NCBI RefSeq assembly: GCF_002941025.1 | Contig: NZ_PTJS01000001.1 | Location: forward strand, 806,001 to 870,000 | Length of the DNA: 64,000 nucleotides | Source: Streptomyces sp. QL37 | Lineage (GTDB): Bacteria; Actinomycetota; Actinomycetes; Streptomycetales; Streptomycetaceae | Reading direction: 5' to 3' | Part shown: piece by piece, positions 21,957 to 28,468 of the stretch | How positions within the stretch are numbered: the first letter of the stretch is position 1 | Layout: the number at the start of each line of letters is the position of its first letter | Made by a program: the position numbers and the translations under genes | Notes under the pieces: generated by a model | Database searches by the model: none | Seen by the model: the letters and a program-made list of their open reading frames with translations, nothing else | What the model was told of the DNA's origin: nothing

Positions 21957-23543
21957 CTACGGATCGACGACGGCCGCCGCTCGGACCATCCCCTTCACCA
22001 CACCCTGACCGTCGAAAGCCGCTCCGCCCCCTGACCCGAGCCCCAGCCACAGGTCGGTGAACCGGTCGAGCAGCCCGGCCGCCCGGGTCACATCGTCCGT
22101 CAGCGGCCGGTCGGCCAGCTCCGCATCGAGGACCGAGTCCGCCAGCTCGAAGGCGCGGCCGACGGGCAGCCCTGGATCGAGCCGCATGTCGCGCTGCCGC
22201 AACGCCCTCACGGCCGCGACGAGTTCGCAGCCCACGACGAGCCGGTAGGCCTCGCACGCCCGCAGCGTCTGGCGCGCCGCCAGCGAGGCGAAGCTGGCCT
22301 GCTCCTCGACCCCTCGCGAGAGCACCGCGTGACCGAGCGACGCGGGCGCCGAGAAGGCCCGCAGGTCCCCGAGCGCCGCCCCGGCCGCGTATTCGAGGAT
22401 CATCACGCCGGACGACGCCGGCTCTCCGTCCGCGAGGAACGGCCGCAGACGCGTGAATCCCGGTTCGTTGAGCGTCGAGAGACGCGAGGTCGACAGGCGC
22501 GCCACCTGCGACACCGCCAGCCTGAAGTGGTCCAGCGAAAGGGCTAGTTGCGCGAGGTAGAAGCCGCCGTGGTGATACGCCGCCATGTCGTCCGCCGAGA
22601 TCAGCGGGTTCTCCGCCGCCGCGTTGATCTCGACCGCGAGGACTTCTTCGAGCGCGTCCGCCGCGTCATGCGCGGGCCCGTGGATCTGGGGCACACAACG
22701 GAAGCCGTACGGGTCCTGGATGCGGCCGAGCGGCGGCGTGGGACGGTCGGGCGCACCGAGCAGCAGACGCATGCGTTGCGCGACTGCGTACGAGCCGGCA
22801 TGCCGGCGCGCCTCGTGCACGGGCAGCGCGTACGCCTCGTACGAACCGTCGATCGCCATCAGGGAGAGCGCAGCCACCACCTGCGTGGCCGCGATCAGAC
22901 CGCGCAGCTCGTGCACCGCGAGCGCCGACTGGCCGAGGGTGAGGGCGTTGCTGCTGATCAGGGCGAGGGCGTCGTTGTTGTCGAGGGGCTGCGGGCCGGG
23001 GGCCGTCCCCGTCCCCTCCCACGGGTGTTCACCCGCCAGCGCGAGTCCCATCTGCGCGAGCGCGGCGATGTCGCCGGTGCCGACCGAGCCGAATTCGTTG
23101 ACCTTCGGGTAGGCGCCCGTCTCCAGCGCCTCGCACAGGGCCGTGACGACGGTGGGGCGCAGGCCGGCGCCACCCGCGAGCAGCTGGTTGGCGCGGACCG
23201 CCAGCATGGCGCGGACCTGCCGCGCCGGCAGCTCCTCGCCGATCGCCCCGGCATGGCTGCGCAGCAGCCGCAGGCCGTGGTCGGCTGCGGCGTCCGTCGG
23301 CACGGACTCATTCCGGTTAGCACCCACACCGGTGGAACGACCGTAGACGCGACCCCACGACGCGATCTCCCGTGCGGCGACCCAGGAGGCCTCGACGCGC
23401 TTCATCCCGTCCGCCGCCGGGACGGGCTTCGCTGCGGATTCGGCCATGCGTACGACATCTGCGACCATCAGTCCGCGGCCGTCGAGGACGACGATCGCAC
23501 CGTCGTCCTCGACCGCCGTGTTCACCATACGAGACGACATCAC
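21957..23543 (-). CDS. Histidine/phenylalanine ammonia-lyase homologue with altered MIO motif
   Basis: This 528-residue protein starts at GTG 23543 (GAGGAGG 8 nt upstream) and aligns by eye over its whole length with the HAL/PAL/TAL superfamily. Tyr67 lies in YGRSTGVGANRN, followed by LLRSHAGAIGEEL, DALALISSNALTLG, Gln276-Asp-Pro-Tyr279 with Arg282, and Glu311-Asn-Pro. The segment that should contain the Ala-Ser-Gly triad reads GSVGTGDIAALAQ (residues 152-164). The triad is replaced by Thr156-Gly157, one residue shorter and without the Ser needed to form methylidene-imidazolone. Either chemistry differs from deamination or catalysis is lost. The gene is divergent from a quaternary-amine ABC transporter, with which it shares a regulatory region. 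Confidence 0.88.
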   Translation of the reverse strand: MMSSRMVNTAVEDDGAIVVLDGRGLMVADVVRMAESAAKPVPAADGMKRVEASWVAAREIASWGRVYGRSTGVGANRNESVPTDAAADHGLRLLRSHAGAIGEELPARQVRAMLAVRANQLLAGGAGLRPTVVTALCEALETGAYPKVNEFGSVGTGDIAALAQMGLALAGEHPWEGTGTAPGPQPLDNNDALALISSNALTLGQSALAVHELRGLIAATQVVAALSLMAIDGSYEAYALPVHEARRHAGSYAVAQRMRLLLGAPDRPTPPLGRIQDPYGFRCVPQIHGPAHDAADALEEVLAVEINAAAENPLISADDMAAYHHGGFYLAQLALSLDHFRLAVSQVARLSTSRLSTLNEPGFTRLRPFLADGEPASSGVMILEYAAGAALGDLRAFSAPASLGHAVLSRGVEEQASFASLAARQTLRACEAYRLVVGCELVAAVRALRQRDMRLDPGLPVGRAFELADSVLDAELADRPLTDDVTRAAGLLDRFTDLWLGLGSGGGAAFDGQGVVKGMVRAAAVVDP

Positions 23544-23595
23544 TCGTAATTCCTCCTCAATCAGGCGCCTCGTCTTGCCTTACGGCCACTCGTAA
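23528..23595. promoter_or_regulatory. Repeated CACTCGTAA element in the lyase/ABC divergent region
   Basis: CACTCGTAA occurs twice (23541-23549 and 23587-23595). Each copy is the right half of an imperfect inverted repeat: TACGAG-N9-CTCGTA at 23528-23548 and TTACG-N6-CGTAA at 23580-23595. The first copy overlaps the start of the lyase homologue. A TTGACA hexamer at 23628-23633 could be the -35 box for the transporter, but no good -10 box lies 16-18 bp away. Confidence 0.45.
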
Positions 23596-23691
23596 CCAGG
23601 GATTTACGCCTGAGCGGCGACCAGCTATTGACAACCTATTCAGTCACCGAGAACTCTGCATGATGATATGCAGCCGGGCAAGGGACTCCTC

Positions 23692-24735
23692 ATGATCCAA
23701 TTCGACAAGGCCCACAAGCGCTTCCCGAACGGCACAACGGCGGTGCACGACCTCACTCTTGAGATGCCGGAAGGGGGTGTGACCGTCCTCGTCGGATCTT
23801 CCGGTTGCGGCAAGACGACGACCCTCCGCATGATCAACCGGATGGTCGATCCGACCTCCGGGACGGTCAGGGTCAACGGCAAGGACGTCCTGGAACAGGA
23901 CGCCGCCGAACTGCGCCGTTCCATCGGTTACGTCATCCAGCAGTCCGGGCTCTTCCCCCACCGCACCGTCCTGGACAACATCGCGACCGTGCCGCTACTG
24001 CTCGGCTGGGGCCGCAGGAAGGCGCGGACGCGGGCCGCCGAACTCCTGGAGACGGTCGGCCTCTCCGCCGACACGGGGAAGCGCTACCCGCACCAGCTCT
24101 CCGGTGGCCAGCAGCAGCGGGTCGGCGTGGCGCGCGCTCTCGCCGCGGACCCTCCGGTGCTCCTGATGGACGAGCCGTTCGGCGCTGTCGACCCCGTGGT
24201 CCGCACCCAGCTCCAGGATGAACTTCTGCGTCTGCAGAAGGAGTTGAACAAGACCATCGTCTTCGTCACGCATGACATCGACGAGGCCGTACGGCTCGGC
24301 GACCGCATAGCCGTGTTCCGGACCGGCGGCCACCTCGTCCAGTGCGCGAGCCCCGCCGAGCTCCTGGCCCGGCCCTCGGACGCGTTCGTCGCGGACTTCC
24401 TGGGCGCGGAGCGAGGCCTGAAGCTGCTGTCCCTCTCGACTCTCGCGGAGCTGCCGCAGGGGCCCGCCCCCGTGGGCACCCGCTGGCAGCTGACCCTCGA
24501 CCCGGCCCGGAAGCCGCTGGCCTGGCGCGACAGCGAGACCCGTGCGGAGACCCCGGTACGCCCCCTGCGGGACACGGACTCGCTGCTCTCCGCTCTCAAC
24601 GAGTCGATCGCCGCGCCGAGCGGCCTGGTGGCCCGGGTCGACGCGGAGGGCGTCCTCACCGGCGTGACGTCACGCGAGGACATCCACGACCACGCGGGTC
24701 ACGTGCACAGCGAGGCAAGCACGGTGCTCGCATGA
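23692..24735 (+). CDS. Quaternary-amine ABC transporter ATP-binding protein (OpuC/ProV-like)
   Basis: A protein of about 347 residues starting at ATG 23692 (MIQFDKAHKRF, with AAGGG upstream). The ATPase core has Walker A (GSSGCGKTT), signature (LSGGQQQRVGVARAL), Walker B (VLLMDEPFGAVDP) and H-loop (VTHDIDEA). The linker GYVIQQSGLFPHRTVLDNIATVPLLLGW is diagnostic of glycine betaine/carnitine/choline transporters. The C-terminal 90 residues hold a partial CBS-like segment. It is the first gene of a four-gene operon and overlaps the next by 4 bp. Confidence 0.93.
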   Translation: MIQFDKAHKRFPNGTTAVHDLTLEMPEGGVTVLVGSSGCGKTTTLRMINRMVDPTSGTVRVNGKDVLEQDAAELRRSIGYVIQQSGLFPHRTVLDNIATVPLLLGWGRRKARTRAAELLETVGLSADTGKRYPHQLSGGQQQRVGVARALAADPPVLLMDEPFGAVDPVVRTQLQDELLRLQKELNKTIVFVTHDIDEAVRLGDRIAVFRTGGHLVQCASPAELLARPSDAFVADFLGAERGLKLLSLSTLAELPQGPAPVGTRWQLTLDPARKPLAWRDSETRAETPVRPLRDTDSLLSALNESIAAPSGLVARVDAEGVLTGVTSREDIHDHAGHVHSEASTVLA

Positions 24736-25382
24736 CCGTCGACGGGTCGTGGATATCCGACCACACCGGTGACCTCACCGCCCTGGCCCTCTCCCACCTC
24801 CAGGCGGCACTCACCGCCGTGCTCCTCGGTCTGATCGTCTCGCTCCCCCTGGCTGTTGTCGCGCACCGGGTACGGAGGCTGCGCGGGCTCCTCCTCGGCC
24901 TGTCCAACGTCCTGTTCACCATCCCGTCCATCGCCGTCTTCGTGCTCCTCCTGCCGGTCAGCGGTCTCACCCGCACCACCACCGTCATCGGCCTGACGAT
25001 CTACACGCTCGTCGTGCTCCTGCGGAACACGGTCGAAGGCCTGGACTCCGTCCCCGTCCGGACGAAGGAGGCCGCGAAGGCCATGGGCTCCCGGCCGCTG
25101 CACACCCTGCTCACCGTCGAACTGCCCCTCGCCCTCCCGGTGATCATGGCGGGCGTGCGGATCGCGACGGTGATGGCCATCTCCCTCGTCTCCGTGGCCA
25201 CGTACATCGGCGACGGCGGACTCGGACAGCTCTTCACTGACGGGTTCCAGCGCAACTTCCCGACCCCCGTGATCGTCGGCGTCGTACTGACCCTGCTCCT
25301 CGCGCTCGTCGCGGACGCTCTTCTCGTCGCCCTTCAGTACGTCCTTACCCCCTGGACCCGCCGGCAGAAGCAGAGGGCCTGA
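24732..25382 (+). CDS. Quaternary-amine ABC transporter permease 1 (OpuCB-like)
   Basis: This 216-residue inner-membrane protein starts at ATG 24732 in an ATGA overlap. It has about five to six helices and the ABC permease EAA loop (TKEAAKAMGSRPLHTLLTVELPLALPVIMAGVRIA). VLFTIPSIAVFVLLLPVSGL and YIGDGGLGQLFTDGF are hallmarks of the OpuB/OpuC permeases. It forms the translocation channel with the second permease. Confidence 0.93.
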   Translation: MTVDGSWISDHTGDLTALALSHLQAALTAVLLGLIVSLPLAVVAHRVRRLRGLLLGLSNVLFTIPSIAVFVLLLPVSGLTRTTTVIGLTIYTLVVLLRNTVEGLDSVPVRTKEAAKAMGSRPLHTLLTVELPLALPVIMAGVRIATVMAISLVSVATYIGDGGLGQLFTDGFQRNFPTPVIVGVVLTLLLALVADALLVALQYVLTPWTRRQKQRA

Positions 25383-25385
25383 CCC

Positions 25386-26072
25386 GTGTACGAACTCTTC
25401 AAGAACCTCGGCGCCTGGCTCGTCGGCGGCGAACAGTGGGCCGGGGCGGACGGCATCGGCCACCGCCTCGCCGAGCATCTCCAGTACTCACTGCTGGCCA
25501 CGCTCGTCGCCGCCGCCGTCGCACTGCCGATCGGCCTGCTCATAGGTCACACCGGGCGCGGCGCGTTCGTCGCCATCAACCTCTCCAGCTTCGGCCGGGC
25601 GCTGCCCACCGTCGGCCTCGTCGTGCTGGTCTTCCTCGCCAGCGGTCTGTCGATGTGGCCCGTCTACATCGCCCTTGTGGCGCTCGCCGTACCCTCCATC
25701 GTCACCAACACGTACGCGGGCATGACCGCCGTCGACCCGGAGGTGCGGGACGCTGCGCGCGGGCAGGGCATGCGCGGGCACCAGGTCCTCCTCCAGGTCG
25801 AACTCCCGCTCGCGCTCCCGCTGATCATGACCGGGCTGCGGCTCGCGCTCATCCAGGTCGTCGCGACGGCCACCATCGCCGCGTACGTCTCCTTCGGCGG
25901 GCTCGGCCGGTACGTCTTCGACGGGCTCGCCCAGCGCGACCTCGTACAGGTGCTCGGGGGCGCCGTGCTCGTGGCGGTCGTCGCCGTCGTACTCGATCTC
26001 ACGCTCTCCGCGCTCCAGCGCGCCCTTTTCCGTCATCGCCCCGCCAAGCCGGCCCAGGAGCAAGCACGATGA
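25386..26072 (+). CDS. Quaternary-amine ABC transporter permease 2 (OpuCD-like)
   Basis: This 228-residue protein starts at GTG 25386, 3 bp after the first permease. It has the permease EAA-type loop (DAARGQGMRGHQVLLQVELPLALPLIMTGLRLALIQ), FGRALPTVGLVVLVFLASG and YVSFGGLGRYVFDGL. It is homologous to permease 1 and presumably pairs with it as a heterodimer. Its stop overlaps the binding-protein start by 4 bp. Confidence 0.93.
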   Translation: MYELFKNLGAWLVGGEQWAGADGIGHRLAEHLQYSLLATLVAAAVALPIGLLIGHTGRGAFVAINLSSFGRALPTVGLVVLVFLASGLSMWPVYIALVALAVPSIVTNTYAGMTAVDPEVRDAARGQGMRGHQVLLQVELPLALPLIMTGLRLALIQVVATATIAAYVSFGGLGRYVFDGLAQRDLVQVLGGAVLVAVVAVVLDLTLSALQRALFRHRPAKPAQEQAR

Positions 26073-27004
26073 ACCGCAGAACTCTTCTCGGCGGGCTCTT
26101 CGCCGCCGCCTCCGTCCCCGCGCTCGCTGCCTGCGGCGGCGGGATCACCTCCCTCGACGGGCAGGGATCCGGCGGTGCAGGCGGAGGCTCCAGCAAGGGC
26201 GGTGTCACCATCGGCACCGCCAACTTCACCGAGAACCAGGTGCTCGGACACCTCTACGCGGCGGCGCTCGAAGCGGAGGGCGTGAAGACCACCGTCCGCC
26301 CCAACCTCGGCACCCGCGAGATCCTCATACCCGCCCTCGAGGGCGGCGACATCGACCTTCTGCCCGAGTACCAGGGGGCCCTGCTGCACTACCTCGACGC
26401 GGAGGCGAAGGCCACCGAGGAGGGCGAGATGCAGAACGCCCTCGCCATGTCCCTGCCGCGCGGCCTCCAGATCCTGCCCTACGGCATGGCGGAGGACTCC
26501 GACGCCTTCGTCGTCACCCGGGAGACCGCCGAGAAGTACGGCCTGAAGTCCCTCGCCGACCTCGCCGAGCACAACGGGAAGCTCGTCATCGGCGCGGCGC
26601 CGGAGGTCAAGAAGCGCACGGTGGGCGCGGTGGGACTCAAGGACGTGTACGGCGTGGAGTTCAAGGAGTTCAAGTCCCTCGACTCCTCGGGTCCGCTGGT
26701 CAAGGGCGCCCTGCGGAAGGGCGACGTCGACGTGGCGAACCTCTTCACCACGGACACCGACATAGCCGCCGAGCACTGGGTCGTCCTCACCGACCCGAAG
26801 AACCTCGTCCCCGGCCAGCACGTCGTCCCGCTGATCGCAGACCGCAAGGCCGACTCGACGGTCCGCAAGGCGCTCGCCCGGCTCGGCGGCACGCTGACGA
26901 CCGAGGACCTCACCGAGCTCAACCGCCTGGTGGACAAGGACAGGAAGGACCCCGAGGACGTCGCGAAGGACTGGGCGGCGAAGCACGGGATCAGGAAGAA
27001 GTAG
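26069..27004 (+). CDS. Quaternary-amine ABC transporter substrate-binding lipoprotein (OpuCC/ProX-like)
   Basis: This 311-residue lipoprotein begins MNRRTLLGGLFAAASVPALAAC, with a twin-arginine start and lipobox Cys22. A Gly/Ser linker follows, then the OpuAC-type domain: VTIGTANFTENQVLGHLYAAALEAEG, LLPEYQGALLHYL and AEDSDAFVVTRETAEKYGLKSLADLAEH. The family binds trimethylammonium compounds in an aromatic cage, and the same fold includes binding proteins for ergothioneine (EgtU). The actual ligand cannot be read from the sequence. It is the last gene of the coupled ABC operon. Confidence 0.92.
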   Translation: MNRRTLLGGLFAAASVPALAACGGGITSLDGQGSGGAGGGSSKGGVTIGTANFTENQVLGHLYAAALEAEGVKTTVRPNLGTREILIPALEGGDIDLLPEYQGALLHYLDAEAKATEEGEMQNALAMSLPRGLQILPYGMAEDSDAFVVTRETAEKYGLKSLADLAEHNGKLVIGAAPEVKKRTVGAVGLKDVYGVEFKEFKSLDSSGPLVKGALRKGDVDVANLFTTDTDIAAEHWVVLTDPKNLVPGQHVVPLIADRKADSTVRKALARLGGTLTTEDLTELNRLVDKDRKDPEDVAKDWAAKHGIRKK

Positions 27005-27058: not shown

Positions 27059-28468
27059 ATGGCAGCTGAAGACCTGGTGGAGCGGCGCTCCATCGACGTC
27101 GTCCCGGACGACGAACGGCACGGGACCGCGTTCAGTCAGTTCACCCTCTGGCTGGGCGCCAACCTCCAGATCACCGCGGTCGTCACGGGCGCACTCGCCG
27201 TCGTCTTCGGCGGCGACGTGGTGTGGTCGGCCGTCGGCCTGCTGCTCGGCAACCTCCTGGGCGGCGCCGTCATGGCCCTGCACTCCGCGCAGGGGCCGAA
27301 GCTCGGCCTGCCCCAGATGATCCAGTCGCGCGCCCAGTTCGGGGTGCGCGGCGCGGTCGTCCCCCTCCTCCTGGTCATCCTCATGTACGTGGGCTTCTTC
27401 GCGAGCGGCAGTGTCCTCGCCGGACAGGCGACCGCCGAGCTCACGCACACCGACGACACCACCGGCATCGTCGTCTTCGCCCTCGTGACGGCCGTGACGG
27501 CGGCGGTCGGCTACCGGGTGATCCACGTCCTGGGGCGGGTGGCCAGCGTGGTCTGCGCGCTCGCGTTCATCTACCTGGGCATCCGCCTGCTGGATCGTGC
27601 GGACCTGTCGGCGCTGCTCGGTGACGCGCGTTTCGACCTGCCGATGTTCCTGCTCGCGGTGTCGCTCTCGGCGTCCTGGCAACTCGCCTTCGGGCCGTAC
27701 GTCGCGGACTACTCGCGCTATCTGCCGCGTACGACGTCGGGGCGGGTGACGTTCTGGTGGACCCTTTCGGGATCTGCCGTCGGCTCGCAGTGGTCGATGA
27801 CCTTCGGCGTTCTCGTGGCGGCGAGCGCGGGTGAGGCGTTCCTGGTCAACCAGGTCGGTTACGTGGTCGGTCTGGGCGGCACGGGTCTGGTCGCGTCGTT
27901 CCTGTACTTCGTGATCGCGCTCGGCAAGCTGACCATCAACGTGCTGAACACCTACGGCGGCTTCATGTCGATGGTGACCAGCGTCAGCGGGTTCCGCGGC
28001 CAGAAGACGCTCTCGCAGCGCGGCAGGACCGCGTACATCGCGCTGATCATGGTGGCGGGGACGGTGGTGGCGCTCCTGGGCAAGGACAGCTTCCTGACGT
28101 CCTTCAAGGACTTCCTGCTGTTCCTGCTGACGTTCTTCACGCCGTGGTCGGCGATCAACCTGGTCGACTACTACCTGATCTCACGGGAGCGGTACGACAT
28201 ACCGGCGCTGTCCGACCCCGAGGGCCGCTACGGCGCCTGGCGCTGGGACGCTCTCGGGGTCTACGCGGTGGGAATCCTCGCCCAGCTGCCCTTCCTCGTC
28301 ACGCACTTCTATACGGGACCGCTGGCGGATCCGCTGGGCGGTGCGGACATCTCCTGGATCGTGGGCCTGGCGGTCCCGGCGGCGCTGTACTGGCTGCTGG
28401 CACGCCGGAACACGGCCCACGTCCCGGAGGAGACGCTGTACACCCTGGTCCCTCCGCAGAAGCCCTGA
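27059..28468 (+). CDS. NCS1-family purine/cytosine-type permease
   Basis: This 469-residue integral membrane protein has about 12 helices. It begins with the soluble stretch VERRSIDVVPDDERHGTAFSQFTLWLGANLQITAVVTG, typical of NCS1 permeases (cytosine, purine, allantoin, hydantoin symporters). Other matches are PQMIQSRAQFGVRGA, YVADYSRYLPRTTS and FFTPWSAINLVDYYL. It follows the ABC operon by 54 bp and is probably co-transcribed. The combination of a betaine-type ABC importer with a nucleobase-type symporter suggests two N-containing substrates or a substrate/product pair. Confidence 0.92.
   Translation: MAAEDLVERRSIDVVPDDERHGTAFSQFTLWLGANLQITAVVTGALAVVFGGDVVWSAVGLLLGNLLGGAVMALHSAQGPKLGLPQMIQSRAQFGVRGAVVPLLLVILMYVGFFASGSVLAGQATAELTHTDDTTGIVVFALVTAVTAAVGYRVIHVLGRVASVVCALAFIYLGIRLLDRADLSALLGDARFDLPMFLLAVSLSASWQLAFGPYVADYSRYLPRTTSGRVTFWWTLSGSAVGSQWSMTFGVLVAASAGEAFLVNQVGYVVGLGGTGLVASFLYFVIALGKLTINVLNTYGGFMSMVTSVSGFRGQKTLSQRGRTAYIALIMVAGTVVALLGKDSFLTSFKDFLLFLLTFFTPWSAINLVDYYLISRERYDIPALSDPEGRYGAWRWDALGVYAVGILAQLPFLVTHFYTGPLADPLGGADISWIVGLAVPAALYWLLARRNTAHVPEETLYTLVPPQKP

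Follow-up and report, generated by a model that had tools for sequence, protein, structure and literature searches.

In ammonia-lyases acting on aromatic amino acids, the methylidene-imidazolone (MIO) group serves to make ammonia a good leaving group, raising the question of which reaction, if any, is left to a family member without the residues that form it. Such a homologue is encoded in a 64,000-nucleotide stretch of the Streptomyces sp. QL37 genome (the whole of which is called the window here), next to divergently oriented importer genes (Table 1). An initial annotation had noted the missing residues and proposed an MIO-independent lyase, a binding protein or a sensor. With slightly better than an even chance, we consider it an MIO-free trimethylamine-lyase converting hercynine (histidine betaine) into urocanate and thereby feeding the histidine pathway.

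Table 1. Features of the lyase locus, with positions within the window and the basis of each assignment.
Feature	Position	Strand	Basis
MIO-less aromatic amino acid lyase homologue, 528 aa	21957..23543	-	PF00221 match, PDB phmmer, AF2/Foldseek
Shortened loop GSVGTGD, residues 152-158, without Ala-Ser-Gly	23070..23090	-	Sequence and alignments
Intergenic region between divergent lyase and ABC genes	23544..23667	.	AGGAGGAATT precedes the lyase start on the - strand (read directly)
ABC ATPase, betaine/ProV type, divergent from lyase	23668..24735	+	NCBIfam proV subfamily 306 bits, cut-off 327; conserved beside lyase
ABC permease 1, ProW/choline type	24741..25382	+	Below curated NCBIfam cut-offs; conserved beside lyase
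ABC permease 2, ProW/choline type	25386..26072	+	Below curated NCBIfam cut-offs; conserved beside lyase
Substrate-binding protein, OsmF/ProX/EgtUC type	26045..27004 (start probably near 26069)	+	NCBIfam OsmF 78 bits, cut-off 400
NCS1-family permease	27059..28468	+	NCBIfam ncs1 125 bits, cut-off 353; weak PDB match to Mhp1 hydantoin permease

The lyase reading frame is full length with zero internal stops. In a profile search of the genome it scored above the Pfam cut-off for the aromatic amino acid lyase superfamily, in agreement with its fold, and phmmer matches in the PDB comprised HutH and ergothionase, the T. denticola ergothionase being among the best. The AF2 model (pLDDT 85.2) has ergothionase 6s7j as its top Foldseek match, its input alignment having taken in five rows of the ergothionase clade. 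The absence of Ala-Ser-Gly from the loop, as originally noted, was borne out. By comparison, the HutH of the same genome (L081, C1:5218637) carries GSLGCSGD with a Cys-Ser-Gly triad, the 14 MIO-type rows of our tree read GSxG(A/C)(S/C)GD, and the Ala/Cys-Ser-Gly triad used as a criterion for HutH is lacking in the window lyase. Judged from its sequence, the enzyme should not build MIO by the known Ala-Ser-Gly route, and the initial annotation was right on this point. Correct, too, is its statement that Ser is missing from the loop, but the column of the MIO Ser of HutH is occupied by another residue with a hydroxyl group, Thr156.

The underlying alignment of 130 rows consists of the window lyase, 120 homologues listed of 1452 and nine loci, and is mostly of Arthrobacter type. 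The Thr156 column holds Thr in 127 rows and Ile in one, with two rows gapped. Conservation in 127 of 128 ungapped rows could indicate that cyclisation of Thr156 with its neighbours and dehydration yield ethylidene-imidazolone, a methyl-substituted MIO, in a classical ammonia-lyase, an option to which we give next to no credence. The loop is one residue shorter, one row has Ile instead of Thr, and the Gly following Thr156 is Ala in 94 of the 128 ungapped rows (Gly in 32, Pro and Ser in one each). Furthermore, HutH Asn195, present in 14/14 MIO-type rows, is Ser197 here (SSN vs NGT). Ergothionase, which is reported to lack MIO (PMC13405746), likewise couples a short loop with MIO absence.

Sequencing error and gene decay were both ruled out. 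GSVGTGD[IL] is present in 80/80 loci from other Streptomyces records, TG in 81/81 Streptomyces copies including the window, and a short loop in all 120 homologues among the matches listed (of 3342). Across the 81 aligned Streptomyces copies, 20 out of 20 key positions are invariant, with no inactivating changes scattered over the active site, and dN/dS ranges from 0.079 to 0.189 in eight orthologue pairs. On these grounds the loop is genuine, ancient and maintained by selection, the last as the initial annotation had assumed.

Beyond the loop, the window lyase resembles HutH (TIGR01225) in fold, length and pocket. Tyr67, the Ser96-His97 pair, Gln276, Tyr279, Arg282, Phe328 and Glu413 are kept, and equivalents of HutH Tyr53, His83, Gln277, Tyr280, Arg283, Phe329 and Glu414 are all present. 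Ser-His, in the place of HutH His83, is the histidine-type selectivity motif. Landmarks pointed out earlier (Tyr67, Gln276/Tyr279/Arg282 and Glu311, the latter being E310 in an alignment numbered from one residue later) proved to be conserved along with the full length. The broader claim that all other regions are conserved held for these pocket landmarks, but not for Asn195, replaced by Ser197, nor for the residue ahead of Tyr385, which is mostly Gln in MIO HALs and Glu384 in the window lyase (Glu384 in 128/128 and Tyr385 in 127/128 ungapped rows). Also unlike HutH, the protein reaches 280.3 bits against an NCBIfam hutH cut-off of 539, and the genome possesses an MIO-type HutH besides it.

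An MIO-less ammonia-lyase homologue as such is already known in ergothionase, which gives the idea of an MIO-independent lyase a precedent; the clade of the window lyase is a new branch. Scoring the loop on a family tree of homologues, as the initial annotation had suggested, assembled the TG-type rows in a clade of their own. In this 53-row tree, the window lyase groups with 14 MIO-less rows in total at a support of 100/100, separate from the ergothionase clade, a GSVGQAD clade and the MIO-type HALs. The clade signature is GxxGT[GA]D, SS[NS] and E-Y, with the loop Thr changed to I in L087, and members (>250 bits plus the loop) occur in 11 of 296 sampled actinobacterial genomes. In a second Streptomyces subclade (L119:9157-10935 and L120:8785-10755), the loop domain and SSN are separated by a long insertion rich in Pro, Ala and Gly. 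All MIO-less rows fall on one side of a branch supported at 100/99, except for L134, which joins the MIO HALs on a long branch and whose loop GSVGYLIATS hints at a second loss of MIO. As PAL, TAL and aminomutase rows were left out of the tree, a single origin of MIO loss was left unconcluded.

The precedent raises the possibility that the window lyase is itself a Streptomyces ergothionase, cleaving ergothioneine into thiourocanate and trimethylamine, which we regard as unlikely. The loop of the T. denticola enzyme (6s7j, P0121 clade), SSIGEGD, is similarly short and Ser-less, and the Foldseek result points in the same direction, subject to the composition of the model alignment. Sequence identity to ergothionase is 25-26%, with Thr in place of the loop Glu, and the two belong to separate clades. 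Where the window clade has Glu-Tyr, the ergothionase clade has Gln-Lys384, with K in 14 of 16 rows sampled and N in two; we presume a catalytic role of Lys384 in ergothionase, its place being taken by Tyr385 in the window lyase.

Gene neighbourhoods were a further means of distinguishing the two pathways, the neighbours of the window clade, where linked, being of the hut type instead of the thio type. All six urocanases tested beside MIO-less lyases (L029, L133, G041 and G118 of the window clade, G248 and G184 of the QAD clade) matched hutU best, as did the unlinked urocanase of the window genome. These seven scored 875-942 bits for hutU, compared with 626-690 for thiourocanate hydratase and 680-736 for S-methyl thiourocanate hydratase. 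That this scoring can tell the pathways apart follows from the reversed result for a control urocanase of Deinococcus (L130), reaching 767 bits for thiourocanate hydratase (cut-off 930) and 665 for hutU. The respective cluster, an ergothioneine-type catabolic one on a plasmid of Deinococcus sp. KNUC1210, resembles the window-clade loci in that its MIO-less lyase is accompanied by an M20-type amidase and a member of the urocanase family; it differs in its thiohydantoin desulfurase-like gene (395, cut-off 440) and ErtE gene (563, cut-off 520). Its lyase (within L130:3549-9368) has the loop TSLGESD, lacks the ergothionase Lys and carries Asp for a conserved Glu.

Thiourocanate pathway genes were not seen beside window-clade lyases in the loci examined, the window itself being devoid of a nearby urocanase. 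PF06032 had no match in 14 of 15 genomes searched. The lone match, at 260 bits (cut-off 440), is a DUF917 gene of the window genome itself (G000:C1:642655-643047; L153:1477-2541). Located about 185 kb from the lyase, its relatedness to thiohydantoin desulfurase speaks for the ergothionase alternative, its low score against it. In addition, a putative ergothioneine-degrading gene is reported from another actinobacterium, Mycolicibacterium neoaurum (PMC11993508); if it belonged to the window clade, the case for ergothioneine would gain. The window genome has one urocanase and a single PF10017 gene; this family, that of the EgtD methyltransferase, also gives a match in the E. coli control. Hercynine is the product of EgtD and the precursor of ergothioneine.

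Returning to the hercynine reading, the location of relatives of the window lyase in hut clusters, a further likeness to HutH, was quantified in Streptomyces. Among 70 named loci with at least 7.5 kb of sequence downstream of the lyase, 54 have a urocanase there and hutU is missing in 16. Linkage depends on the identity to the window lyase, with 50/56 loci below 86% and 4/14 at or above it. The lyase occurs in 60 of the 121 Streptomyces genomes sampled (E up to 1e-60); the urocanase lies within 25 kb in 35 of these, farther away on the same contig in ten, including the window genome, and on another contig in 15. Sorted by identity, copies at least 86% identical to the window lyase have the urocanase near in two, far in four and on another contig in one genome, those at 65-86% in 33, zero and six, and the 14 copies below 65% (50-60%) in zero, six and eight. 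All counts share ancestry and are not phylogenetically independent. In each of the 35 linked genomes, the urocanase is on the lyase strand and is the only urocanase match, a singularity that also holds for 14 of the 15 individually labelled genomes, Arthrobacter L133 being represented by its plasmid only. The hutU gene of the window genome is 2.7 Mb from the lyase, and three of its close relatives, G358, G346 and G359, are likewise unlinked; G129 (genome 95% complete) has the lyase and gave no urocanase match.

Gene positions in the loci of relatives were re-read by tblastn. Locus L029 has the order ABC genes, lyase, rpiR-type regulator, decarboxylase-like gene, hutU, M20 amidase and hutF, whereas the Arthrobacter plasmid L133 reads ABC-ABC-ABC-SBP-hutU-lyase. 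Of two distant actinobacteria, G041 (L116) shows rpiR, a gene that looks symporter-like, HutH, ABC genes, SBP, lyase, M20 amidase and hutU, and G118 (L117) has hutU and another lyase-family gene within 8 kb along with the lyase. As these orders differ, the clusters outside Streptomyces appear to be independent of the Streptomyces arrangement. The rpiR-type gene adjoining the lyase in related loci, together with the loss of MIO, might suggest a non-catalytic pseudoenzyme or a sensor of the hut regulon, an interpretation we hold to be very improbable. Those loci already have a dedicated regulator, and the 20 key positions are invariant in 81/81 copies. The binding protein or sensor originally proposed is less likely given that the Tyr base is kept, as are the carboxylate and imidazole positions of the HutH pocket, and that the gene is found with an importer and, in relatives, with a catabolic pathway. 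An MIO-independent lyase, also among the initial proposals, is the best reading.

The importer genes recur at the lyase loci. Of the 72 Streptomyces loci that extend 5 kb or more upstream of the lyase, tblastn located all four betaine-type ABC genes in 56 and at least one of them in 62, while the NCS1 gene is present in 21; three loci have NCS1 without ABC genes and seven have neither. The NCS1-family permease is a possible second importer of the same substrate. ABC genes were also located by tblastn at the lyase loci L115 (contig ending before the SBP), L116, L118-L121 and L133, and betaine-type ones were absent from L117 and L129. Histidine came into consideration as the ABC cargo on account of HutXWV, a histidine importer of the betaine type in Sinorhizobium. 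It is disfavoured, the importer tracking the MIO-less lyase while the HutH of the genome lies elsewhere.

The best PDB sequence relatives of the window binding protein are Lmo1422, EgtUC and ProX. The window protein is of the same class as SpEgtUC (PMC9732360) and keeps equivalents of E375 and R379; it differs from EgtU in that SBP and permeases are separate genes, and in its site. Positions K242/I243/G244 (placed via Lmo1422), the thione contacts of EgtUC, are A/N/F, which argues against ergothionase function despite the general relatedness to an ergothioneine binder. The cage residues Asn339/Tyr341/Tyr443 are D/D/Q, with aromatic residues at 293 and 419. The reported affinity of SpEgtUC is about 10,000 times weaker for hercynine than for ergothioneine (PMC9732360), and a site unlike that of EgtU therefore fits a cargo other than ergothioneine. 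With D/D/Q in the cage, it is not a textbook quaternary-amine site either, and this partial cage loss counts against a quaternary amine as cargo. Binding proteins of L029, L133 (Arthrobacter), L118, L119 and L121 resemble that of the window, and L120 keeps Asn339 only. All three cage residues are kept solely in L116 and L122-L124 among the SBP copies linked to the window and QAD clades.

The acidic residues at this site leave some room for another substrate with a good leaving group, be it N-alpha-dimethylhistidine, some other histidine methylated on nitrogen, or an aromatic betaine other than hercynine. Some MIO-less lyases moreover accompany CoA-dependent genes and not Hut genes, indicating that substrates vary among them. 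We rate a different substrate of the window lyase as quite unlikely in view of the retained HutH Ser-His selectivity pair and the HutU linkage in relatives.

For the preferred hercynine reaction, we infer substrate, leaving group, product and residue roles as follows. The divergent ABC importer, perhaps together with the NCS1 permease, would bring the betaine into the cell. The lyase would then remove the amine, most likely trimethylamine, in a single base-catalysed elimination with Tyr67 as the candidate base. MIO would be dispensable since trimethylammonium is already a good leaving group. Arg282 and Gln276 may hold the carboxylate, His97 and Glu413 the imidazole, and by analogy Thr156, Glu384 and Tyr385 would surround the amine. 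With urocanate as the product, the substrate would have to be a histidine bearing the leaving group at C-alpha, and HutU and the later Hut enzymes would convert urocanate to glutamate. The separate clade, the HutH-type pocket, the importer linkage and the canonical HutU linkage in relatives support this reading; the altered SBP cage and the copies without a nearby hutU, including that of the window, count against it. No paper on a hercynine lyase was found in the literature searched, a search whose reach excluded most subscription journals.

Altogether, four MIO-less groups were seen: the window clade, ergothionase with its AAD relatives, the QAD group and the L134 type. Where members carry a name among the matches listed, it is mostly that of a histidine or aromatic amino acid ammonia-lyase. 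The second MIO-less clade with the loop GSVGQAD (L122:7981-9564, L123:8199-10010, L124:9236-10834 and L125:54-1643) has hutU nearby in 4/4 loci, betaine-type ABC genes in L122-L124, rpiR in L123-L125 and an MIO-type HutH in L124 and L125. Lyases with the loop GSVGYLIATS and Gly for Phe329 are encoded on plasmids of Agrobacterium (L134:9004-10551) and Rhizobium lusitanum (L132:2395-3945). Both adjoin an ABC importer of the window type, and in L134 the importer-linked lyase is followed by genes for a CoA transferase, a 3-hydroxyacyl-CoA dehydrogenase and an enoyl-CoA hydratase; they perhaps represent an independent MIO loss with a CoA-linked pathway. A further set of MIO-less lyases has an AAD loop and the ergothionase-type Lys (L131:9833-11338, L132:11689-13335 and L136:7974-9593). 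Those in L131 and L136 are near putative sulfate exporter/YeiH genes, joined in L131 by genes for CoA transferase and MaoC, and perhaps serve the catabolism of sulfur-bearing betaines.

The value of this analysis lies in a specific and testable prediction, namely that many Streptomyces convert hercynine to urocanate. If true, about half of the Streptomyces species (60/121 sampled) would carry an enzyme for using hercynine as food via the histidine pathway, with release of trimethylamine. Such a finding would likewise support a simple rule by which enzymes of the ammonia-lyase fold dispense with MIO where a quaternary amine is expelled, with the four MIO-less groups providing the scope for testing it.
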